This document shows positions 40,514-51,895 of a stretch of DNA of 64,000 nucleotides, one piece after another. A program made the position numbers and the translations under genes. The stretch covers positions 848,486 through 912,485 of the forward strand of contig NZ_CP144373.1 in the NCBI RefSeq assembly GCF_040450955.1. The letters run 5' to 3'. Below the pieces are notes generated by a model that was not told where the DNA came from, made no database searches, and was given only the letters and a program-made list of their open reading frames with translations. This stretch comes from Thermodesulfovibrio sp. 3907-1M (GTDB lineage: Bacteria; Nitrospirota; Thermodesulfovibrionia; Thermodesulfovibrionales; Thermodesulfovibrionaceae). Every line of letters starts with the position of its first letter. Position 1 is the stretch's first letter.

Positions 40514-41362
40514 TTATGATTTTACGACCAGGACAGGCACCTTTGAAAGCCCGATTACTCTCTGACAGGTGCTTCCCATAAGAAGCCTCTTAAGCCCTGT
40601 TCTGCCATGAGAACCAACAACAATTATATCAGCCTGAATCTGCTCTGCTTTCTCAAGAATCTTTTTGTAAGGCTCTCCTTCTTCTATGAAAATTCTGGTA
40701 GATATGTTCTCACCATGAAATCTAAGCTCAAGCTCTTTTAAGTATTTCTTTGTTTTATTTACCTGTTCATCGTAAAGTTCAGGCTTAACTGCAAAAACTG
40801 CTGAAGGGACTTCTACTGCAGAAATCAGGTTTATCTCTGATTGATAATCTCTTGCAATATCTATTGCTTTACTGCAAACTTTTTCACCATATTTTGAAAC
40901 ATCAACAGCCACAAGACATCTATTCCACTTAATCGTTGAATTTTTTGGAACAACTAAAACATCAGTGTTACTATAACCAATCACTCTTTCTGTCACACTT
41001 CCCATTAAAACCTGCTGAAGAGCACTTATCCCTTTTTTGCCCATAACTATTAAGTCTGCTGAGATTTCCTCGCATACATCAATAATCTTTTCAAAGGGTT
41101 CTCCTTCTTCATAAAGAGTTTTCACGAGAACTTGATGTTTCTCAGCTATATCCTTAGCTTTTGAAAGATTTTCCTTATAAGGTTTACTAATCTCCTCAAC
41201 AGATACTCCAATACCTAAAAGACTTAGATCTCCATGATAGGATGGAGCAACAGTTAGGACAAAAATGTTTTTTTCCTTTGCAAATCTAACAGCCTCTTCA
41301 AAAGCATGGAAACTCTCCTCTGAGCCATCAATGCATACAAGGATTCTTCTGTAAAGTGCCAT
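40514..41362 (-). CDS. tandem universal stress protein
   Basis: The 282-residue protein is two UspA domains in a row. The first starts RRILVCIDGSEES and has an ATP-binding pattern G-x2-G-x9-GS (GKKGISALQQVLMGS); the second starts RCLVAVDVSKYG and has GSHGRTGLKRLLMGS. Both phosphate-binding patterns are intact, which suggests nucleotide binding. TGGAGG precedes the ATG. It lies downstream of the terminator of the TauE/SafE operon, with a TATAAT at 41396-41391 that could start its own message. Confidence 0.9.
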   Translation of the reverse strand: MALYRRILVCIDGSEESFHAFEEAVRFAKEKNIFVLTVAPSYHGDLSLLGIGVSVEEISKPYKENLSKAKDIAEKHQVLVKTLYEEGEPFEKIIDVCEEISADLIVMGKKGISALQQVLMGSVTERVIGYSNTDVLVVPKNSTIKWNRCLVAVDVSKYGEKVCSKAIDIARDYQSEINLISAVEVPSAVFAVKPELYDEQVNKTKKYLKELELRFHGENISTRIFIEEGEPYKKILEKAEQIQADIIVVGSHGRTGLKRLLMGSTCQRVIGLSKVPVLVVKS

Positions 41363-41442: not shown

Positions 41443-42528
41443 CTACTTAACAGCAACGGAAGAGGTTGCAACAATCTTTTGTGTTTTCCTCTCTGCCCGT
41501 AGGCCCTTAAATAACGCTGTACATATAATTCCTGCTCCCACTACAAGAGCTGTTACCATAATAGCGAAGCTTACAGTTTTAAGAGTGGTAACTGTAGCAC
41601 CTGATAAAGGAGATATTATTCCAAGCTGACCGAGATAAACTGGAACCATTAAGCCTCGGCTAACAAGCACAATCAGCATGATAACTCCCATGACGATTTT
41701 AATCATATAATCTTTAACATAGGTAGTTCCTATTGCGCCAAGCTGGACACCGAAAAGAGAACCTGCCAGAATTATCATTGCAAGTCTAATATCTACAAAT
41801 CCGCTCATCGCATATTTAAATGAACCAACCAGACCCATAACAAAGGCGATGACAAGCTCAGTTGCAGATGCCATTATTGCTGGTGCACCAAGCACATACA
41901 TCATAGCAGGAACTCCAATAAATCCTCCCACTGCAATTGTTGCCGCAAGCATGCCTGTTGCAAAACCAAGTGGAATTGTAAAAAGAACAGAAATTTTTGC
42001 ATTGAGGCTTCTGAAATAAACCATAGTTCCTGGAATGTGGATTGACTGAATCCACTTTGCAATTTTTGTAGTTCCTTCAGGTTTGTTTAATTTATCGTTA
42101 TTTTTAGTCTTCATCGCATCTAAAAGGACATATGTGCCTACGATACCAAGAACAACAACAAAAGCCATACTTACATAGAGATTCGAACCTGCATCACCGA
42201 ATGTTTTCTTTATGTATTCCTGAATATGAGCACCGAATAAAACTCCTGCCTCAGCAGAGGCTCCCATCACGATACCAAGCTTAACATCAACCTGACCGAA
42301 TTTAGCTCTTTTTATAGCTCCTACAAGTGCCTTTGGAAACTTATGACACATATTTGATGCAACAGCCACAAGCCCTGGAACTCCCATACTCATCATTCCG
42401 GGTGTCAGAACAAAAGCTCCACCTGAACCAATAAATCCACTTACAAGTCCTCCTACAAGTCCTACAAAGAATAGATACATTACATTCATCCAGTTTAAGT
42501 CAACAAAATTTGTTGTAACTTCAATCAT
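41443..42528 (-). CDS. TauE/SafE-family exporter 1
   Basis: Inner-membrane permease of the TauE/SafE (DUF81) family, known or proposed to export sulfite, sulfonates or related anions. The start at 42528 is set by AAGGAGGACAAA just upstream; an in-frame codon 24 residues earlier would overlap the preceding gene. The 361-residue protein has a duplicated fold: GGLVSGFIGSGGAFVLTPGM (~26-45) and GFATGMLAATIAVGGFIGVP in the second half, with about eight to nine helices. It is third in an operon with a motif-bearing USP-like protein and a small membrane protein under a sigma-54-type promoter. Substrate unknown. Confidence 0.88.
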   Translation of the reverse strand: MIEVTTNFVDLNWMNVMYLFFVGLVGGLVSGFIGSGGAFVLTPGMMSMGVPGLVAVASNMCHKFPKALVGAIKRAKFGQVDVKLGIVMGASAEAGVLFGAHIQEYIKKTFGDAGSNLYVSMAFVVVLGIVGTYVLLDAMKTKNNDKLNKPEGTTKIAKWIQSIHIPGTMVYFRSLNAKISVLFTIPLGFATGMLAATIAVGGFIGVPAMMYVLGAPAIMASATELVIAFVMGLVGSFKYAMSGFVDIRLAMIILAGSLFGVQLGAIGTTYVKDYMIKIVMGVIMLIVLVSRGLMVPVYLGQLGIISPLSGATVTTLKTVSFAIMVTALVVGAGIICTALFKGLRAERKTQKIVATSSVAVK

Positions 42529-42550
42529 TTTGTCCTCCTTTCCCTGTTCT

Positions 42551-42844
42551 TTATGCTCGTAACTGAGTTCTGATCTCTTTTCTCTCAACAGGTCTGTCAT
42601 GTTCTGTCAATTCAACTCTCTTTTTCTTTGCCTCAATTCCAAGCGTCTGCCAGAAGTAGTTTGTAAAGTTACCATGAGCAAAGGAGAAAATAAAAGCAGT
42701 TGCCACTGGAAACAAAGCATAAAGTCCTCCTCTTGAACATAATGACTTTACTATTGGCTCATTCAGAAATAAACCTGCATACAGAGTTATGGTAATTGCA
42801 CCATAAAACAACAGCTTAAATAAAGATTTGTTTTTTCTTGGCAT
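42551..42844 (-). CDS. small membrane protein, partner of exporter 1
   Basis: I do not recognise the family. The 97 residues have a basic N-terminus, two hydrophobic segments (~10-28 and ~40-56) and a charged cytoplasmic-type tail (EAKKKRVELTEHDRPVERKEI). One cysteine (Cys36) lies between the helices. AGGAGG precedes the ATG and contains the stop of the upstream gene. It sits between the USP-like gene and exporter 1, 22 bp before the exporter start, so an accessory role in the transporter is a reasonable inference. Confidence 0.8.
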   Translation of the reverse strand: MPRKNKSLFKLLFYGAITITLYAGLFLNEPIVKSLCSRGGLYALFPVATAFIFSFAHGNFTNYFWQTLGIEAKKKRVELTEHDRPVERKEIRTQLRA

Positions 42845-42845
42845 C

Positions 42846-43268
42846 TTAACCTCCTATTAAATTTTTATTTGGTTGAACAAAAACTACATAACCATTTGAA
42901 AGTCTTCCCAAGATTTTTTCATCTGCTGTAACTATAAGATCAGCTCTCTCTAAAAGATTTCTTATCTTTTGTTCTGAAAAGCTATCATACTGCAAAATCT
43001 CATAGTCCACATCACCCTCCTTTAATTTTTTCATATGATTTTCTGAGACTTCTTTTTTCAACAAAACTCTTAATAGAGCATTTACTCTTTTGGTTAAATT
43101 TAAAGCGTACTTTAATGAATACTCATCCTCTTGAGTTCCTGAAATAATTACCACAATATCAGGCTTTTTCCTTAAAATTTGCTGAGCTGTATCAAACTCT
43201 CCTGCCTCGGCAAAACTGATGGCTGACATGTAGGTTTCAAATTTACTTATTAAATCTTTTATCCTCAT
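42846..43268 (-). CDS. protein with FAE motif and USP-like domain
   Basis: A 140-residue protein. I start it at ATG 43268, with GGAGG 8 nt upstream; the GTG five codons earlier contains that ribosome-binding site. Residues 15-32 (SAISFAEAGEFDTAQQIL) carry a short motif also found in the 55-residue protein at 45449-45616 and at the C-terminus of the regulator at 51331-51789. The rest (~36-140) resembles a single degenerate UspA/Rossmann-like domain (DIVVIISGTQEDEYSLKYAL) without the glycine-rich ATP pattern. It leads the operon with the 97-residue membrane protein and exporter 1. A sigma-54-type promoter lies directly upstream. Function unknown. Confidence 0.8.
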   Translation of the reverse strand: MRIKDLISKFETYMSAISFAEAGEFDTAQQILRKKPDIVVIISGTQEDEYSLKYALNLTKRVNALLRVLLKKEVSENHMKKLKEGDVDYEILQYDSFSEQKIRNLLERADLIVTADEKILGRLSNGYVVFVQPNKNLIGG

Positions 43269-43293
43269 CTTAAATTCCTCCACTTTTTTAGAT

Positions 43294-43311
43294 AAACAAT
43301 TAATATGCCAG
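43294..43311 (-). promoter_or_regulatory. sigma-54-type promoter of the exporter 1 operon
   Basis: On the minus strand, CTGGCATA-TTAA-TTGTT runs from 43311: GG at 43309-43308, ten bases, then GT at 43297-43296. It matches the -24 element and spacing of sigma-54 promoters; the -12 has GT instead of GC. The start would fall near 43285, just before the ribosome-binding site. Confidence 0.62.
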
Positions 43312-43373: not shown

Positions 43374-43403
43374 TTGCAAATTGCATCGCCATATTTGTAA
43401 AAT
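43374..43403 (+). promoter_or_regulatory. candidate sigma-70 promoter of the receiver-Lon gene
   Basis: TTGCAA (43374-43379) and TAAAAT (43398-43403) are 18 bp apart, with a predicted start near 43410 and the ATG at 43422. The flanking TTGCA/TGCAA repeats cover both elements, so a protein bound there should block this promoter. Confidence 0.4.
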
Positions 43404-43407
43404 GCAA
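43375..43407. promoter_or_regulatory. TTGCA/TGCAA inverted repeats, probable activator sites
   Basis: TGCAA-A-TTGCA (43375-43385) is a perfect inverted repeat. TTGCAT (43381-43386) and ATGCAA (43402-43407) form a second, wider pair. They lie about 95-120 bp upstream of the sigma-54-type start, a usual enhancer distance, and overlap the promoter of the divergent Lon-fusion gene. A similar repeat occurs at 45748-45760. Confidence 0.55.
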
Positions 43408-43421
43408 TAAAGAAAACAAAA

Positions 43422-45425
43422 ATGAAACTTTTCAAAAAAACAGATAAGATTGATGAAACCAGGAGTACTATAGTTGAAGAACTGAGAAGAAAAATTCTTC
43501 AATCTGGAATGCCTTCTCAGGTAAGAGATATTGCTCTTGCAGAGCTTGATCTGCTTTCAAAGATGAATCCTGCAGCAGCAGAATACACTATTACTCTAAC
43601 CTACATAGAATACCTTACAACACTTCCATGGAATAAAAAAACAGCTGATAATCTTGACTTGGAAAGAGCAGAAAGAATTTTGAATGAAAGGCATTATGGT
43701 CTTTATGGTGTTAAAAATAGAATTCTTGAACATCTTGCAGTAAAAATTCTGTCTTCAAATAGGAATCCAAGAATATTAATAGTTGATGATGAAGAAATAG
43801 CGAGAAAAAATCTTGAACACATTTTAAGAAAAGAAAACTATGATGTGGTTAGTGCTAAAAATGGAGCAGAAGCTTTCAAACTTCTTGATGAGCAAGAATT
43901 TGAAATAGTGCTTACTGATATCAAAATGGAGGGATTAGATGGCTTTGCCATACTGGATAAAGTAAAGGCAAAATATCCAAATACAAAAGTTATAATGATA
44001 ACAGCCTATGCCGCTGTTGATAATGCCGTTGAAGCAATAAAAAAAGGAGCCTTTCACTATATTGCCAAACCTTTTAAAATAGAAGAAATAAAACTATCAA
44101 TAAAACAGGCATCAGAAGATAGAGTTTCAACAATCTCCACAAAAGGCTCCATCCTGTGCTTTGCAGGTCCACCTGGAACGGGAAAAACATCTCTCGGAAA
44201 ATCAATTGCAGATGCTCTTGGAAGAAAATTTGCAAGAATCTCACTCGGTGGGATAAAAGATGAGGCAGAAATAAGAGGACACAGAAGAACCTATGCTGGT
44301 GCAAAACCCGGCAGAATAATAGAGGAAATTCGCAGAACAGGAGTTGCCAACCCTGTTTTAATGCTTGATGAAATTGATAAAATCTGTCAGGACTTCAAGG
44401 GAGACCCTGCTTCAGCGCTCCTTGAAGCTCTTGATCCTGAACAAAATCATGCATTTATTGACCATTATCTTGATGTTCCTTTTGACCTTTCTGGAGTTAT
44501 GTTCATAGTAACTGCAAATATACCTGATAATATACAACCAGCTCTCCTTGACAGAATGGAAGTCATAGAGTTTTCAGGATACACAGAAGAAGAAAAGAAA
44601 AACATAGCATTAAAACATTTAATTCCTAAACAGACAACTGAGCAGGGTCTTACTGAGTTTCCTCCTGAGTTCACTGATGAGGCTATTTTAAAAATTATTC
44701 AGGAATATACAAGAGAAGCCGGGATAAGAAATCTTGAAAGAATGATCGCAACAATATGCAGAAAACTGGCAACTGAAGTTGTAAAAGGAAGTAAACCAAA
44801 AACTCCAGTAAAAATAACTCCAGAAATGGTGGAAAAATATCTTGGTCCAAGAAGATATTACTTTGAAGTGGCGGATGCAAAAAATAGGGTAGGAGTTGTA
44901 ACAGGACTCGTATGGACAGAAACAGGTGGTGATATCATTTTCGTAGAAGCAGCTAAAATGAAAGGTAAAAGAGAGCTAATTCTTACTGGTTCTCTTGGAA
45001 ACATAATGAGAGAATCTGCCCAGGCAGCGCTGAGCTATATAAAAAGCAATGCTTCTGTGTTTGGCATTTCAGAAGAGATATTTGAAAATCAGGACATACA
45101 CATTCATGTCCCCCAGGGAGCAATTCCAAAAGATGGACCATCAGCCGGAGCAACAATAGCAATGGCTTTGATTTCTTTGTTTACAAACAGACCGGCAAAG
45201 AGGGATGTGGCAATTACTGGAGAACTTACTTTAAGTGGAAGAATACTTCCTGTTGGTGGTATTAAAGAAAAAATTTTAGCAGCAAAGAGAGCAGGAGTAA
45301 AAACAGTCATAGTTCCTCACAGAAACAAAGTAGATATTGATAATCTACCAGAGGACTTTAAAAAAGGATTGAAAATTATATTTATGGAAAAGATTGAAGA
45401 TGTTGTTGATATAGTGTTGATTTAA
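43422..45425 (+). CDS. Lon protease with inserted response-regulator receiver domain
   Basis: The 667-residue protein begins with the helical segment of Lon that precedes the ATPase (~14-110, [20 protein letters not shown] through [12 protein letters not shown]). The usual N-terminal substrate-recognition domain is absent. A complete receiver domain follows (~117-232): acidic pair Asp122/Asp123, phosphoacceptor Asp166, Thr194 and Lys216. Then come the AAA+ module, with Walker A GPPGTGKT (249-256) and Walker B LMLDEID (313-319), and the S16 protease domain with Ser574 (DGPSAG) and Lys617, at the 43-residue spacing of the E. coli Ser679-Lys722 pair. All catalytic residues are present, so phosphorylation-controlled proteolysis is the natural inference. 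It is transcribed divergently from the exporter 1 operon. Confidence 0.93.
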
Positions 45426-45447
45426 AAAGGGGCGTGTAGCCCCTTTT
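45425..45447. terminator. bidirectional terminator between receiver-Lon and the 55-residue gene
   Basis: AAAAGGGGC (45425-45433) pairs with GCCCCTTTT (45439-45447) around the loop GTGTA. The stops of both convergent genes touch it: TAA of the Lon fusion at 45423-45425 and TAG of the small gene at 45449-45451. Confidence 0.8.
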
Positions 45448-45448
45448 A

Positions 45449-45616
45449 CTAAGCTCTCATACGGGGTCTTATATGCTGCTGAGGTCTTACCCTGTCTTTC
45501 TTTCTATGGATATCTTGCTGTCTAAGAATTTCTCTGGCTGTATCAAACTCTCCTGCCTCAGCAAAACTAATAGCTAAAAATAAATTTTCAAAAAGTTGTG
45601 CAATTCTTTTAAACAT
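45449..45616 (-). CDS. 55-residue FAE-motif protein
   Basis: A short gene I read directly on the minus strand: ATG at 45616-45614, TAG at 45451-45449, 55 residues. AAGGAGG lies 7-8 nt upstream of the ATG. The N-terminal half is MFKRIAQLFENLFLAIS, followed by FAEAGEFDTAREIL (residues 18-31). The C-terminal half is strongly basic (RKKDRVRPQQHIRPRMRA). The motif segment is nearly identical at DNA level to that of the USP-like gene at 43190-43235. It has its own sigma-54-type promoter and a terminator, so it looks like a real, regulated gene, not a fragment. Function unknown; a mini helical hairpin or adaptor is possible. Confidence 0.78.
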   Translation of the reverse strand: MFKRIAQLFENLFLAISFAEAGEFDTAREILRQQDIHRKKDRVRPQQHIRPRMRA

Positions 45617-45655
45617 TTTTTAAACCTCCTTATTTAAATTTTCTAATAAATAAAT

Positions 45656-45672
45656 TAGCATTTTTTATGCCA
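45656..45672 (-). promoter_or_regulatory. sigma-54-type promoter of the 55-residue gene
   Basis: On the minus strand, CTGGCATA-AAAA-ATGCT runs from 45672: GG at 45671-45670 and GC at 45659-45658, exactly ten bases between. This is a good match to the -24/-12 consensus. The sequence TTTCTGGCATA is shared with the promoter at 43294-43311. The expected start near 45646 leaves a 30-nt leader with the ribosome-binding site. Confidence 0.72.
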
Positions 45673-45747: not shown

Positions 45748-45760
45748 TTGCATTTTGCAA
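45748..45760. promoter_or_regulatory. TTGCA-TTT-TGCAA inverted repeat, probable activator site
   Basis: A perfect 5-3-5 inverted repeat about 105 bp upstream of the sigma-54-type start of the 55-residue gene. It also falls between the likely -35 and -10 of the divergent kinase gene (TATATT at 45765-45770). It uses the same half-site as the repeats at 43375-43407. Confidence 0.58.
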
Positions 45761-45782: not shown

Positions 45783-47243
45783 ATGTTTCCTAAAAGCATT
45801 GCACAAAAAATAATGCTTTTTTACATTACTGGAATCTTTGTTACTGTCGGTTTATCAGTAGTTGTTCTGTATGATATATGGCTAATCACACAAAAAATAG
45901 AGGTGGAAGAAAGTATCTTTAATTTATTTGAAACAATTCAGGAAATAAGAAGAACAGAGAAGAATTTTTTTCTTTACAGAAATGAAACAGACTATCGTGA
46001 CAACTTAGAGTACATTAAGACTGTTAAAAATTTTATCACTGATCAAAAATTTGAAGGATTAAAGATAGAAAAATCAATAAAAAAATTATCAGATACTCTA
46101 CAAAGTTACGAATCATTAATGTTACAATTAAGAGAAAAAATAAATTCTCCCTCTGGTCATAATCTTGAACAGTCAATAAGAGAAAAAGGTAAAATGCTTA
46201 CTCATATAGCAGAAGATATTAAAACAACAGAACGCAAGTTAATAAAAGACAGTCTTAATAACATTTTGAAATACAGCATTTTTCTAATAATTATATTTTT
46301 TGTTATTCCTTTTATTTCTTTTGGTTTAGGACTCACAAGATTGATCTCCAAACCGTTGAAAGAACTTGAAGAGAAAATGAAAAAAATCGCTGAAGGCAAA
46401 ATATACTCTATTGAAGTTAAATCTCATGATAAAGAGATTCTTTCGCTTGTGGATACTTTTAATAAGGTTTTAAAAGAACTTGAATCAAAACAAAAGCAAC
46501 TGATTCAGGCTGAAAAACTCTCCTCACTTGGCACACTTCTTTCAGGAATTGCCCATGAACTAAACAATCCACTCTCAAACATTTCAACTTCCTGTCAGAT
46601 ACTTATTGAAGAGCTTGAAGAAGCAGATAATGAATATAAAAAAGAGCTACTTCAGGCAATAGAATCTCAGACAGAGAGAGCTAAAAACATCATAAAAACA
46701 GTTCTTGATTTTTCAAGAAGAAAAGAACTGCAAAAAGAAAATATCTCTGCACGAAACTTAATTGAAGATACAATTGTTTTAATTAAAGGTGAAATTCCAA
46801 CAAAAATTAACTTAGATTTTGATGTAGAAGAAAACCTTACAATATATGCTGATAAACAACGGATTCAGCAGGTTCTTTTAAATCTCATTAAAAACGCAAT
46901 CCAGGCATCTGAACCAGAAGGAGAGGTAAAAATCAGGGCTTACTCATACAGCCAGGAAGCTCTTGATAAATATCTGTTTCTTAAAAAAGAAGGAAAGTGT
47001 GTAGGAGAAATTTCTCTTAATAAAGAGTTCGTTGTCTTAGAGGTAAAAGACAATGGTCCAGGAATCCCTCAAGAGAACCTCTCAAAGATCTTTGAACCAT
47101 TCTTCACCACCAAAGAAAACAAAGGTTCAGGATTGGGACTTTTTATAACACAGGAATTAATTAAAGACCATGACGGATGTATATGTGTGGACAGTGTTCT
47201 TGGACAGGGAACAACATTCGTGGTAATGCTCCCGGGACAGTAA
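45783..47243 (+). CDS. membrane histidine kinase 1
   Basis: The 486-residue sensor kinase has a first transmembrane helix (~10-35), a helical periplasmic domain (~36-160, with RRTEKNFFLYRNETDYRDNL, reminiscent of HBM or four-helix-bundle sensors), a second helix (~163-186) and a HAMP linker (~187-235). The dimerisation domain has phosphoacceptor His258 (SGIAHELNNPLS), and the ATPase domain has NLIKNAIQA, DNGPGIP, EPFFTTK and GSGLGL. No Shine-Dalgarno sequence precedes the ATG, and a TATATT box ends 12 nt upstream, so the message may be leaderless. The NtrC-type gene begins 1 bp after the stop, so they are partners. Confidence 0.93.
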   Translation: MFPKSIAQKIMLFYITGIFVTVGLSVVVLYDIWLITQKIEVEESIFNLFETIQEIRRTEKNFFLYRNETDYRDNLEYIKTVKNFITDQKFEGLKIEKSIKKLSDTLQSYESLMLQLREKINSPSGHNLEQSIREKGKMLTHIAEDIKTTERKLIKDSLNNILKYSIFLIIIFFVIPFISFGLGLTRLISKPLKELEEKMKKIAEGKIYSIEVKSHDKEILSLVDTFNKVLKELESKQKQLIQAEKLSSLGTLLSGIAHELNNPLSNISTSCQILIEELEEADNEYKKELLQAIESQTERAKNIIKTVLDFSRRKELQKENISARNLIEDTIVLIKGEIPTKINLDFDVEENLTIYADKQRIQQVLLNLIKNAIQASEPEGEVKIRAYSYSQEALDKYLFLKKEGKCVGEISLNKEFVVLEVKDNGPGIPQENLSKIFEPFFTTKENKGSGLGLFITQELIKDHDGCICVDSVLGQGTTFVVMLPGQ

Positions 47244-47244
47244 A

Positions 47245-48588
47245 ATGACAAAAATTCTGGTAGTGGATGATGAAAAAATAACTTTAAAAAATCTTGAACA
47301 TGTCCTGAAAAAAGAAGGTTATGATGTCACAGCTACACAAAGCGGTGTGGAGGCTTTAAAACTTATTGAAAAACAACCATTTGACATAGTTTTAACTGAT
47401 ATAAAGATGGAAAAAGTTGATGGATTTGAAATATTAAGAAGGTGCAAAAGTCTCTATCCAGATACCGAAGTAATAATGATAACAGGTTATGCTACAGTAG
47501 AAAACGCGGTTGAAGCAATGAAGGAAGGAGCATTTTACTATATCTCAAAACCTTTCAAATTGGAAATTATTCGCAAAATTGTCAAAGAAGCCTCTGAAAA
47601 GGTGAATCTTAAAAAAGAGGTTAAACAACTCAGAGAGCAACTGGATTTTCGTGAAAAAGTCAACATAATTACTCAAAACATTAAAATGCTCAAACTTTTA
47701 GAGATTGCCCGACAGATATCTCCAACAGATTGCAACGTTTTAATTACTGGTGAATCTGGCACAGGAAAGGAACTCTTTGCAAGATATATTCACCTAAATT
47801 CTTTAAGGAAATCAGGACCTTTTTTAGCTGTCAATTGCGGAGCTTTTACAGAAGAACTTCTCAGTAATGAGCTTTTCGGACATGAAAAAGGAGCCTTTAC
47901 CGGAGCTACAACACTAAAAAAAGGACTAATTGAAATGGCCTCTTCAGGCACTTTATTTCTTGACGAAATTACAGAGATGTCTCAAACAATGCAGGCTAAA
48001 TTTCTTAGAATAATTCAGGAAAAAGAATTTTTCAGGTTGGGAGGAACAGAACCAATCAGTGTTGATGTAAGATTTATAGCAGCAACAAACAGGGATATTC
48101 GTGATGAGGTCAAAAAAGGAAAATTCAGAGAAGACCTTTATTACCGATTAAATGTGGTTAATCTGGAAATTCCTCCACTAAGAGAAAGAAAAGATGATGT
48201 TCCTTTACTGGTTGCATATTTTCTAAAAAAGTATTCTTCAATTATGAAAAAGGAAGTTTTTAAAATTTCAGAAGAGGCATTAAATTTACTTATAAATTAT
48301 GATTATCCCGGTAATATAAGAGAACTTGAAAATATCATTGAAAGAGCAGTTGTACTTTGCAATTCATCTCAAGTGGAAGTCGAACATCTTCCAGATGATC
48401 TTAAGGAGTTAAAAATTCAAGTTTTTGTTAAAAAAGAAGGTAAATTTATGACTCTGGAAGAATTAGAAAAAGAATACATAAAATGGGTTTTAAAAGAAGT
48501 GGGCAATAAAACAGTAGCTGCTCAGATACTTGGCATTGACAGAGTATCTTTGTGGAGAAAGATGAAAAATTATGGACTTGAAGATTAA
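47245..48588 (+). CDS. NtrC-family sigma-54-dependent response regulator
   Basis: Transcription activator of sigma-54 RNA polymerase. The 447 residues contain a receiver domain (1-120, phosphoacceptor Asp52, Thr80, Lys102), an AAA+ domain with GESGTGKE (169-176), the sigma-54-contacting loop GAFTGA (216-221) and LFLDE (237-241), and a Fis-type helix-turn-helix at the C-terminus (KTVAAQILGIDRVSLWRKMK). The receiver aligns with that of the Lon fusion at about 60 percent identity by eye, including the run IVLTDIKME. It is the obvious candidate to act at the sigma-54-type promoters at 43.3 and 45.66 kb and to bind the TTGCA repeats. Confidence 0.94.
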   Translation: MTKILVVDDEKITLKNLEHVLKKEGYDVTATQSGVEALKLIEKQPFDIVLTDIKMEKVDGFEILRRCKSLYPDTEVIMITGYATVENAVEAMKEGAFYYISKPFKLEIIRKIVKEASEKVNLKKEVKQLREQLDFREKVNIITQNIKMLKLLEIARQISPTDCNVLITGESGTGKELFARYIHLNSLRKSGPFLAVNCGAFTEELLSNELFGHEKGAFTGATTLKKGLIEMASSGTLFLDEITEMSQTMQAKFLRIIQEKEFFRLGGTEPISVDVRFIAATNRDIRDEVKKGKFREDLYYRLNVVNLEIPPLRERKDDVPLLVAYFLKKYSSIMKKEVFKISEEALNLLINYDYPGNIRELENIIERAVVLCNSSQVEVEHLPDDLKELKIQVFVKKEGKFMTLEELEKEYIKWVLKEVGNKTVAAQILGIDRVSLWRKMKNYGLED

Positions 48589-48625: not shown

Positions 48626-50329
48626 ATGCCAGGTCTGATTAAGAAATTTATTACAAAACTATCGGAAGAAAGATATTTTTATTTTAAATTTAAGCTAATT
48701 CTATTAAATACTTTCTTTTCTGTGATACCTCTTATTATTGTCATCACAATTACATACTTATGGATCCATCAAATAGCTCATGATGAATTTAAAAATAACC
48801 TTAAATGGCAGATGGAAGAAACAAGGCACTCCCTTGAATTTTTTATTTCTGAAAGAATTTCTGCTCTAAGATTCCTCGTAAGTTCTTATCCTGAGGAGTA
48901 TTTTACAAACGAAAAAATTTTTTCCCGGTTATTTTCTAATTTTAAAAAAGAATTTGAAGGCATTGTAGATATGGGTATAGTGGATGAGAGAGGAATTCAG
49001 ATGTTATATACAGGTCCTTATAAACTTAAAGGAAAAGATTACTCACAGGCAGAATGGTTTAAAGAAATGTTTTTAAGAACAGAATATGTAACAGATGTTT
49101 TTCTTGGTTACAGAAAAATCCCACATTTTTCTATTATAGTAAAAAAGGAATCAAACTATCATAATAAATTCTGGCTCATCAGGGTTTCGTTAAATATGGA
49201 CATTTTACAGAAATTTGTTTCAAATCTTGAAATTGGTAACAATGATGATGCTTTTTTTATCAATAAACAACGCATTCTTCAAACAAATTCAAAATTATTC
49301 GGTAATGTGCTTGAACCTCTGAAATTAAACAATATCACGATACAGACAGATAGAAAAAATATTACAATTTATAACATTGAATTAAATAAAAAGCAGGCTT
49401 ACATAGCATATGTGCCTGTGAAAGATACTCCGTGGATACTTGTAACTGCCATATGTTCAAGACCCTACGAAAAAATTCCTTCTTTTTTTACAAAAGAGGT
49501 TATATTAATAAGTATTCTGAGCATTATTATCACTTTTTTTGTGATAACAAAATCAATAACTTCATTAATTAACAGAATACAGAAAGCAGACCACGAAAGA
49601 GAAATCGCTATTGCAAATGCCGAACACGCTGATAAACTTGCCTCTATCGGCAGGCTTGCTGCTGGAGTTGCTCATGAGATTAACAATCCTCTTGCAATTA
49701 TAAATGAAAAAGCAGGACTTATGAAAGACCTTATTGAATACACTGATTTATCTCAAAACAAAGATAGATTTCTTCAACTTGTCAGTTCAATTCAGGATAA
49801 TGTTGCAAGATGCAGGAGTATAACTCACAGGCTTTTAAGTTTCTCAAAAAGAATTGATAGAGGCAAAGAAGATTTCAATATAAATGAAGCAATAAAAGAA
49901 GTAGTTGGATTTATAGAGAAAGAAATCCGAACAAAAGGTATAAATATGTTTTACGATTTTCAAGAAGATTTGCCCAAAATTATATCAGATAAAGGACAGC
50001 TTCAGCAGGTCCTATTAAATATTATTAACAACGCAGTGGACGCGGTAGATCAGGGCGGAACAATTGAGATTAAAACAAAATTGAGCAACTCAAATCATAT
50101 AGCAATATCAATTAAGGACAATGGACACGGAATACCAAAAGATAAATTGAAACATATTTTTGAGCCTTTTTATACTACAAAGAAAAAAGGAACAGGGCTT
50201 GGATTATACATTTCCTACGGAATTATTAAAAAACTTGGTGGTGAAATTTATGTATCAAGCGAAGTTGGAAAAGGAACAATTTTCACAATAGAAATACCAA
50301 TCAATCCAGAAATGGAGGAAATTAAATGA
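48626..50329 (+). CDS. membrane histidine kinase 2 with Cache-like sensor
   Basis: The 567-residue sensor kinase has a transmembrane helix (~22-48), a large periplasmic region (~50-285) that reads like a double Cache domain (MGIVDERGIQMLYTGPY, KDYSQAEWFKE, AYVPVKDTPWILV), a second helix (~290-308), and a dimerisation domain with His350 (AAGVAHEINNPLA). The ATPase domain has NIINNAVDA, DNGHGIP, EPFYTTKKKGTGLGL. Cache domains usually bind small metabolites such as organic acids or amino acids. It overlaps the next receiver gene by 4 bp, forming a three-gene phosphorelay-like unit. Confidence 0.93.
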   Translation: MPGLIKKFITKLSEERYFYFKFKLILLNTFFSVIPLIIVITITYLWIHQIAHDEFKNNLKWQMEETRHSLEFFISERISALRFLVSSYPEEYFTNEKIFSRLFSNFKKEFEGIVDMGIVDERGIQMLYTGPYKLKGKDYSQAEWFKEMFLRTEYVTDVFLGYRKIPHFSIIVKKESNYHNKFWLIRVSLNMDILQKFVSNLEIGNNDDAFFINKQRILQTNSKLFGNVLEPLKLNNITIQTDRKNITIYNIELNKKQAYIAYVPVKDTPWILVTAICSRPYEKIPSFFTKEVILISILSIIITFFVITKSITSLINRIQKADHEREIAIANAEHADKLASIGRLAAGVAHEINNPLAIINEKAGLMKDLIEYTDLSQNKDRFLQLVSSIQDNVARCRSITHRLLSFSKRIDRGKEDFNINEAIKEVVGFIEKEIRTKGINMFYDFQEDLPKIISDKGQLQQVLLNIINNAVDAVDQGGTIEIKTKLSNSNHIAISIKDNGHGIPKDKLKHIFEPFYTTKKKGTGLGLYISYGIIKKLGGEIYVSSEVGKGTIFTIEIPINPEMEEIK

Positions 50330-50703
50330 AAAAAGCAAAACTTTTAATAATTGATGACGAATCTGAATTGGTATCTGCACTTACTGAAAGGCTGACTCTC
50401 AGAGGATATGAAGCAAATGGTGTTACAAATTTTACTGATGGAGTTAAATTTTTAAAGAAATTGCCTGATGTAGTCATATTAGACATCGGATTACCAGATA
50501 TGGATGGACTGGAAGCATTAAAAAAGATAAAAGAAATCAATCCTTCCATTCAGGTAATAATGCTCTCAGGCTATGGAGATGATGAAAGAGTAAATAAAAG
50601 CCTCATGTACGGAGCATACGATTATTTAATAAAACCTGTAGAAATTGAAGAGTTAATATCAAAAATTGAAAGTGCAAAACTTAAAAAGGAGGAGATGAAA
50701 TGA
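50326..50703 (+). CDS. stand-alone receiver protein
   Basis: A single CheY-like receiver of 125 residues: acidic pair Asp10/Asp11, phosphoacceptor Asp53 (ILDIGLPDMDG), LSGYGDDERV and the conserved lysine in YLIKPVE. There is no output domain. It overlaps kinase 2 by 4 bp and the following kinase-like gene by 4 bp, so the three are made together. An intermediate in a kinase-receiver-phosphotransfer chain is likely. Confidence 0.93.
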   Translation: MKKAKLLIIDDESELVSALTERLTLRGYEANGVTNFTDGVKFLKKLPDVVILDIGLPDMDGLEALKKIKEINPSIQVIMLSGYGDDERVNKSLMYGAYDYLIKPVEIEELISKIESAKLKKEEMK

Positions 50704-51329
50704 TTGAAAAACCTTTAGCTTTTGTTGGAAAAATTATTGCAGACTTCACTCATGAAATCAATAATCATCTTGCATTAATAAAAGAATCTGCAGGGCTTAT
50801 AAGTGACATATGCAAGGGTAAAAAATCAATTGATAAAAAGGAAATGCCTTATGTCATGGAAAGCATTGAGGCAATTGAGAATCAGATAAACAAAAGCGTA
50901 AATTTTATAAACTATTTCAACAGATTTGCACACAGAATGGATAACTTAAAAAGCTCCTTTAAATTGAACTATGCTATTGAGGAATTATTTGAACTTCTAA
51001 GAAGATACTCCAACAGAAAAAAAGTATCTTTAAAATATGATTTATCAGCAGACCTACCTGATATTGAAAGTTCTCCATTTATAGTTGAGTTCGCAATATT
51101 TTATGTAATAGATAGCTTTTTGAAAAAATCAAAACCAGATACAAATATTTTTCTTACAGCAAATGCAAACAATAATTTAATTACAATAACAATAAAATAC
51201 AATGGTGAATTTACAGAAAATACAACATCCGAAATATGGAATATTTCAACTGTTCAGGAAATAACATCCCTCGCCAACATAAAAATTTCGTTAGAGGACA
51301 AAACAGCTACAATAGAGATACCAGTATAA
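50700..51329 (+). CDS. kinase-like protein lacking ATP-binding boxes (possible phosphotransferase)
   Basis: The 209-residue soluble protein has a histidine-kinase dimerisation helix pair with His18 (DFTHEINNHLALIKESAGL) that closely resembles kinase 2 (HEINNPLAIINEKAGL). The following region keeps the rough length of an ATPase domain but the N, G1 and G2 boxes are not recognisable: where NIINNAVDA should be, it reads FAIFYVIDSF, and there is no DxGxG. This matches the plan of ChpT-type histidine phosphotransferases, which are kinase relics that pass phosphate between receivers. That role is inference; an inactive regulator of kinase 2 is the alternative. It ends 1 bp before the convergent motif-bearing regulator. 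Confidence 0.75.
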   Translation: MIEKPLAFVGKIIADFTHEINNHLALIKESAGLISDICKGKKSIDKKEMPYVMESIEAIENQINKSVNFINYFNRFAHRMDNLKSSFKLNYAIEELFELLRRYSNRKKVSLKYDLSADLPDIESSPFIVEFAIFYVIDSFLKKSKPDTNIFLTANANNNLITITIKYNGEFTENTTSEIWNISTVQEITSLANIKISLEDKTATIEIPV

Positions 51330-51330
51330 A

Positions 51331-51789
51331 CTATTTTTCCTCCTTGTTTTCCATAATTTTTCTTGCTGTGTCAAACTCTCCCTCTTCAGCAAAGGCAATC
51401 GCAGACATTGTGAGTTCAAGTTTTCTCTGATAAGCACCTTTAATCTTATCCACCAGGGTTTCAATATCAACAGGTTTTCTCAGAAATTCATAAGCTCCAA
51501 GCTTTTCTGCTTCTTCCTTGTCTTTTTCAGTTCCATGTGCAGTAAGAATAATAACCTGTGTTGTAGGATATGCCTGCCTTATCTGCCTTAAAACCTCAAT
51601 TCCATCCATACCAGGCATTCTTAGGTCAAGAACAATAACATCAGGCTCCTGCTCTTTTGCATAACTTATTGCCTCTTCTCCGCTGTATACCGTATCTGGC
51701 TTAAGCTCTCTCATTTCAAGTCTTTTAGCAAGAGTTTTTACAAACTCAACTTCATCATCTACCAGCAAAACTCTCATCTGTCTTCCCAT
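51331..51789 (-). CDS. receiver protein with C-terminal FAE motif
   Basis: A 152-residue response regulator started at ATG 51789 (GGAGG 5 nt upstream); the in-frame TTG four codons earlier is part of that site. The receiver spans ~4-118 with Asp11/Asp12, phosphoacceptor Asp55 (VLDLRMPGMDG), Thr83 and Lys105. The C-terminal helix ends in SAIAFAEEGEFDTARKIM (129-146), the same motif as in the proteins at 42846 and 45449. There is no DNA-binding domain. It is convergent with the kinase 2 unit and could receive phosphate from either kinase. No sigma-54-type promoter is visible upstream of this one. Confidence 0.88.
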   Translation of the reverse strand: MGRQMRVLLVDDEVEFVKTLAKRLEMRELKPDTVYSGEEAISYAKEQEPDVIVLDLRMPGMDGIEVLRQIRQAYPTTQVIILTAHGTEKDKEEAEKLGAYEFLRKPVDIETLVDKIKGAYQRKLELTMSAIAFAEEGEFDTARKIMENKEEK

Positions 51790-51895
51790 ACTTACCTCCA
51801 AAATTTTTAGGTCTTTTTAAAATATTAAAAAAAATCCAAAAAAATGTAAAGAAATTATAAATTATTTGCTTATAAAAAATTATAATAACCATTTT

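Follow-up and report, generated by a model that had tools for sequence, protein, structure and literature searches.

How does a Lon protease find its substrates when it lacks the domain that usually binds them? This question is raised by a locus of Thermodesulfovibrio sp. 3907-1M within the stretch of 64,000 nucleotides that was analysed (the window, to which all coordinates below refer unless another source is given). The gene at 43422..45425 (+) codes for a Lon protease with a receiver domain inserted just before the Walker A/AAA+ module (REC-Lon). It has the AAA+, lid and Ser-Lys protease domains and a complete receiver but is devoid of LON_substr_bdg (PF02190). A second, canonical Lon of the same genome (814 aa; G000:C1, about 759214-761502) has this domain. 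Receiver-Lon fusions were recognised in 2011, and the sources cited here are silent on how substrates are found without the Lon N-terminal domain. Convergent to REC-Lon lies a 55-codon ORF (45449..45616 (-)). Judging from sequence, we give roughly even odds (about 0.5) to its product being a dedicated partner of REC-Lon, an adaptor or activator which may at the same time be one of its short-lived substrates. With its REC-Lon-linked tag, this protein is a concrete candidate for the missing specificity element of receiver-Lon proteases.

The ORF product, MFKRIAQLFENLFLAISFAEAGEFDTAREILRQQDIHRKKDRVRPQQHIRPRMRA, has 55 aa and a pI of 11.2. It combines a TPR-like hairpin (residues about 2-34) with a basic tail, predicted to be disordered, which ends RPRMRA. 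The ORF had been put down as one that length cut-offs miss; the usual minimum of gene callers is 90 nt, and 55 codons exceed that. The first-pass annotation had taken the ORF for a real gene, and this is borne out by a conserved frame, purifying selection, a conserved promoter, a ribosome-binding site and homologues across phyla. Identity of the protein to its counterpart from the nearest congener is 93%, and to those of three further congeners about 50-57%. For the diverged pairs, dN amounts to about 0.3-0.5 and dS to about 0.8-1.8, values from which we conclude that the frame is under purifying selection. Homologues of equal length are spread over Nitrospirota and Desulfobacterota, and a few more come from Betaproteobacteria and other groups; searches of a collection of open-licence papers yielded no earlier description of the protein. 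Absence of the frame from close relatives had been named as an observation that would speak against the gene. Every congener having REC-Lon has kept the frame, and those that lack it are all genomes for which REC-Lon was not found either. In six congeners (G004, G005, G008, G009, G012, G013; each at least 94% complete) neither was found, so that the whole cluster is absent and these genomes are not evidence against the small frame. We consider the 55-codon ORF to be a genuine gene.

Its expression signals were predicted correctly for the most part. The ribosome-binding site AAGGAGG (45625..45631 (-)) is separated from the ATG by a spacer of 8 nt. The proposed sigma-54-type promoter corresponds to the -24/-12 box TGGCATAAAAAATGCT (45657..45672 (-)), which matches 11 of the 12 specified bases. 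Pattern matches with one mismatch are not rare in the window (3 found vs 2.4 expected). Two of the three sit just upstream of the small ORF and of U145, the two genes with the shared motif (see below); the box of U145 is TGGCATATTAATTGTT (43295..43310 (-)). An intergenic alignment of four related genomes revealed two blocks that are frozen amid drifting DNA, namely the invariant sigma-54 box of the small ORF and ATTGCAAAATGCAAC. A box matching 11 or more of the 12 bases lies in the 180 nt preceding 32 of 80 small hairpin ORFs (taken from related loci, some few of them duplicates of one contig) and 21 of 66 longer hairpin ORFs, compared to 6 of 1040 control ORFs.

Further upstream of the small ORF lies the conserved palindrome TTGCATTTTGCAA (TTGCA-N3-TGCAA; 45748..45760), and two near-perfect copies are found upstream of U145 (43374..43407), where they are conserved in five related genomes. 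There are 59 occurrences in 1.43 Mb of related loci, where permuted half-sites give 1.3 on average and 7 at most, and 54 of these 59 are located upstream of genes of the REC-Lon/small-ORF cluster. In many cases a sigma-54-like box is situated 66-86 or 142-211 bases downstream of the palindrome. The palindrome is thus very probably the site of the adjacent sigma-54 activator, given this distribution. The small gene had also been credited with its own terminator. A hairpin does exist (GGGGC-N5-GCCCC at 45425..45447, flanked by A and T runs): RNA folding gave -13.8 kcal/mol on the minus strand and -15.2 on the plus strand (z -2.9 and -3.8), which overturns the verdict "no terminator" from a simple promoter/terminator scan. 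However, this terminator is bidirectional and common to the convergent REC-Lon gene, and therefore does not belong to the small ORF exclusively.

The small gene is embedded in a cluster of regulators and stress genes. On the plus strand follow a DVU3304-like histidine kinase (45783..47243 (+)) and a DVU3305-like sigma-54 response-regulator activator with the GAFTGA motif (47245..48588 (+)). On the minus strand are U145 (42846..43268 (-)), which combines a hairpin module with a Usp-like domain; the small membrane protein p97 (42551..42844 (-)); a TauE/SafE-family transporter (41443..42600 (-)); and a tandem universal stress protein (40514..41362 (-)). In many relatives the usual order is kinase and activator, divergent from the small ORF, then U145, p97, TauE and Usp; in the window, REC-Lon sits between the small ORF and U145. 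For U145, the ATG at 43268 was chosen as start to fit the homologues and the sigma-54 box. We assign U145 to the Usp fold: 18 of its 29 homologues match PF00582 (best 6e-6; the window member itself has no match), and the top PDB fold matches are Usp. A second two-component set (48626-51329 (+); a dCache sensor kinase, a CheY-like regulator and a 209-aa kinase-like protein) is located further downstream, beside the hairpin-tailed regulator described below; a similar block occurs in two related loci (L110, L124).

The regulators are those of the "three-component" general-stress system DVU3298-DVU3305 of Desulfovibrio vulgaris, as described in the parts of the papers on which we draw (PMC3333781, PMC4641369, PMC10102598): an adjacent histidine kinase, a GAFTGA-bearing sigma-54 activator and a Lon with receiver, all of which are present in the window. 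A target operon, divergently oriented and comprising Usp, membrane and anion-transporter genes, is likewise part of the D. vulgaris system, and in the window the Usp and anion-transporter genes are under the conserved palindrome and sigma-54 box. According to these same parts, DVU3305 regulates both operons, DVU3303-3305 and DVU3298-3302, in a response to heat, high pH and stationary phase (PMC3333781); the orthologues of kinase, activator and REC-Lon show cofitness above 0.9 and act together genetically, and the target DVU3299 is a putative anion transporter (PMC10102598). Most binding sites in the D. vulgaris study are inverted repeats of 4-6 bp which are 3-8 bp apart, as is TTGCA-N3-TGCAA. 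An activator orthologue from Thermodesulfovibrio yellowstonii is named in this literature (PMC3333781, PMC4641369, PMC10102598), and the parts considered mention neither a small hairpin protein nor a C-terminal tag.

In the small protein the hairpin module, whose core is FAEAGEFDTAREIL, extends from residue 1 to about residue 34. A15, F18, A19, E20, G22, T26 and A27 are invariant in 58 homologues, and E23 is nearly so. The spacing of the conserved residues and the small/large pattern fit a TPR, and the AF2 model of the small protein has helices at 2-20 and 24-42 followed by a low-confidence tail. No curated family from Pfam or NCBIfam matched hairpin or tail at threshold. TPR_4 scored 17.5 bits, below the Pfam gathering cut-off of 27; weak TPR matches were obtained for 14 of the 58 homologues, TPR_4 being the most frequent weak Pfam match. 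FimV_Cterm is a weak NCBIfam match below significance, and a Foldseek search with the 55-residue model had FimV TPR3 as top match at a non-significant E above 1. Going by this pattern and the model, the N-terminal part is probably a single TPR-like helical hairpin. It would then resemble the C-terminal single-TPR domain of FimV/HubP (4MAL, 4MBQ), all matches to which are below significance; it differs in that the TPR pattern does not include the invariant E20 and T26 or the near-invariant E23. Further weak hits, to DUF4807 and PTS_IIA/EIIA-Lac, were discounted as noise from paired helices, and the matches of the PDB sequence search, all to ParD-like antitoxins, were insignificant.

A motif shared with two neighbours had been reported by the first-pass annotation, and it is indeed present in the frame 42846-43283 (-) and at the C-terminus of 51331-51801 (-). 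The hairpin thus recurs at the N-terminus of U145 and, by motif comparison, as the tail TMSAIAFAEEGEFDTARKIM of a CheY-like regulator (51331..51801 (-)). Among 148 sampled Nitrospirota genomes the module is present in 19 of 21 with REC-Lon compared to 32 of 127 others (p about 1e-8), and in 14 of these 21 a small hairpin ORF directly adjoins REC-Lon. That the hairpin is strictly a REC-Lon element is nevertheless rejected: many genomes carry it without REC-Lon, which indicates that it has some other role, and only the tail tracks REC-Lon.

The second half of the protein had correctly been called very basic (9 K/R and 2 H vs 2 D/E in 24 residues). The last ~20 residues are basic, predicted to be disordered, and end with (L/M)RA. 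A basic (L/M)R(A/V) tail is found in 21 of 27 small ORFs adjoining REC-Lon but in only 1 of 16 from genomes without REC-Lon. This rule was made after seeing the data, so that further genomes of a phylum sample were examined, some of which had already been used to make it. Of the 21 REC-Lon genomes in this Nitrospirota sample, 20 have the tag, be it on the small protein or p97; in the remaining one (G118), REC-Lon is next to a contig end. The tag is carried by each of the 14 small ORFs that directly adjoin REC-Lon, and it was absent from those small ORFs of REC-Lon-free genomes that were read in the sample. The association is post hoc, and kinship was handled only informally by within-family contrasts: four families (f2, f12, f13, f15) agree and one (f5) disagrees, where G031 (with REC-Lon) and G019 (without) have the ending SAPGAKR in common. 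In addition, the tail is present in one locus (L063) from a genome in which REC-Lon was not found.

Apart from the small protein and p97, practically none of about two thousand neighbouring ORFs that were surveyed carries the tag. In the clade of the window, p97 ends RPVERKEIRTQLRA, the same tag as in the small ORF, whereas in other groups most p97 proteins are shorter and lack this extension. Two genomes (G188, G201) have REC-Lon with no small ORF detected; here hairpin, Usp and p97 form one frame which ends RPQPQPRLRA(K/R)L. This rejects the assumption that REC-Lon always needs the small ORF, as p97 carries the tag. As far as these sequences go, the tag moves between carriers but stays with the REC-Lon protease. 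For the basic half, nucleic acid, membrane or an acidic partner had been suggested, which proved too open: the co-occurrence of the tail with REC-Lon and its recurrence on the neighbouring membrane protein point to a protein partner, and to REC-Lon as this partner. Single frames that consist of a degenerate hairpin, a Usp-like domain and p97, and end with this basic LRA tag, are present in two loci (L136 8148-9074 (+); L137 8316-9146 (+)).

From the gene, the promoter architecture, the two-part anatomy of the product and the co-occurrence of tag and REC-Lon, a scheme of phosphorylation, binding and proteolysis can be derived. The histidine kinase would phosphorylate the sigma-54 activator and probably also the receiver inside REC-Lon. 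The activator would bind TTGCA-N3-TGCAA and activate both the small gene and the U145-p97-TauE-Usp operon from their sigma-54 promoters. The small protein, folded as one TPR-like hairpin, may dock on stress proteins that bear or bind hairpins. Being devoid of the domain with which Lon usually binds substrates, REC-Lon would need a handle, and would recognise as such the flexible basic tail of the small protein with its (L/M)RA ending. The small protein would thus couple the receiver-bearing protease to a stress complex; the membrane protein p97 bears this tag in certain species, either alone or together with the small protein. A wider and distinctly tentative reading is that REC-Lon might be a phosphorylation-switched Lon with its own recognition code, the basic C-terminal (L/M)R(A/V) tag replacing the standard substrate-binding domain. 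The tag would move between a one-hairpin adaptor and a membrane protein of the transporter operon, and two-component signalling would directly control proteolysis at that complex.

There is precedent for small dedicated Lon partners that confer specificity, such as SmiA (PMC9204741) and HspQ; their Lon, however, has the N-domain. Another precedent is the Lon activator LarA from Caulobacter, a small, stress-induced protein which engages Lon via the five residues at its C-terminus and is also degraded (PMC10665427). LarA and our protein, for which the interaction is a proposal, share a C-terminal tag that is short, disordered and linked to Lon. LarA differs in its size (89 aa), in being under heat-shock (sigma-32) control and in having a hydrophobic tag which ends in His; it acts on canonical Lon, probably at the N-domain, whereas REC-Lon has none.

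It is possible, if somewhat unlikely, that the small protein is a plain REC-Lon substrate. The tail would then be a C-terminal degron, and the small protein and p97 would act in stress via the hairpin or the membrane part until REC-Lon removes them, e.g. at the end of stress. A tag that is short, extreme C-terminal, disordered and transferable between unrelated carriers is what one expects of a degron, and fits a docking peptide equally. On the other hand, the small ORF is the most frequent direct neighbour of REC-Lon, which suggests that its product is more than just one of many clients. Degron and adaptor are inseparable by sequence, and LarA is both (PMC10665427).

Less probable still is a general stress scaffold, in which the hairpin would form homo-oligomers, or hetero-oligomers that include U145, further Usp-like proteins and the regulator with the hairpin tail. 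The basic tail would bind nucleic acid (RNA or DNA) or membrane, and common regulation and ancestry alone would account for the link to REC-Lon. The occurrence of the hairpin in several proteins of one regulon, sometimes in tandem, and its presence without REC-Lon agree with such a role. But a tail that binds nucleic acid or membrane is not expected to come and go with REC-Lon, to keep its (L/M)R(A/V) ending, or to reappear on p97 when the small ORF is missing.

An anti-adaptor whose tail occupies REC-Lon and blocks proteolysis in stress, by analogy with the Ira proteins that block RssB, would account for the same co-occurrence data and for the presumed induction by the same regulator as its target; since p97 can bear the tag instead of the small protein, which suits recruitment better than inhibition, we regard this reading as very improbable. 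A chance ORF, for which only the short length speaks, can be dismissed in view of the conserved frame, purifying selection, conserved promoter and ribosome-binding site, and homologues across phyla.

The hairpin would also define a docking module common to a stress regulon in several phyla and unrecognised by the searched curated family libraries. The hairpin-tailed CheY-like regulator persists in congeners without the REC-Lon cluster (G005, G012). A fourth copy in the genome is inside a Usp-like protein (L174, G000:C1:797500-800500; frame near 1069 (+)), which is located between another sigma-54 activator and another TauE-like transporter and thus in a paralogous cluster. PEP-synthase-like proteins of 888 aa carry the hairpin at about residue 197 (L080 13770-16436 (-), L104 12649-15315 (+), L126 3590-6256 (-)). 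Finally, a small protein of L104 (6528-7025 (+)) has three hairpin modules in tandem, the last of which is very TPR-like.
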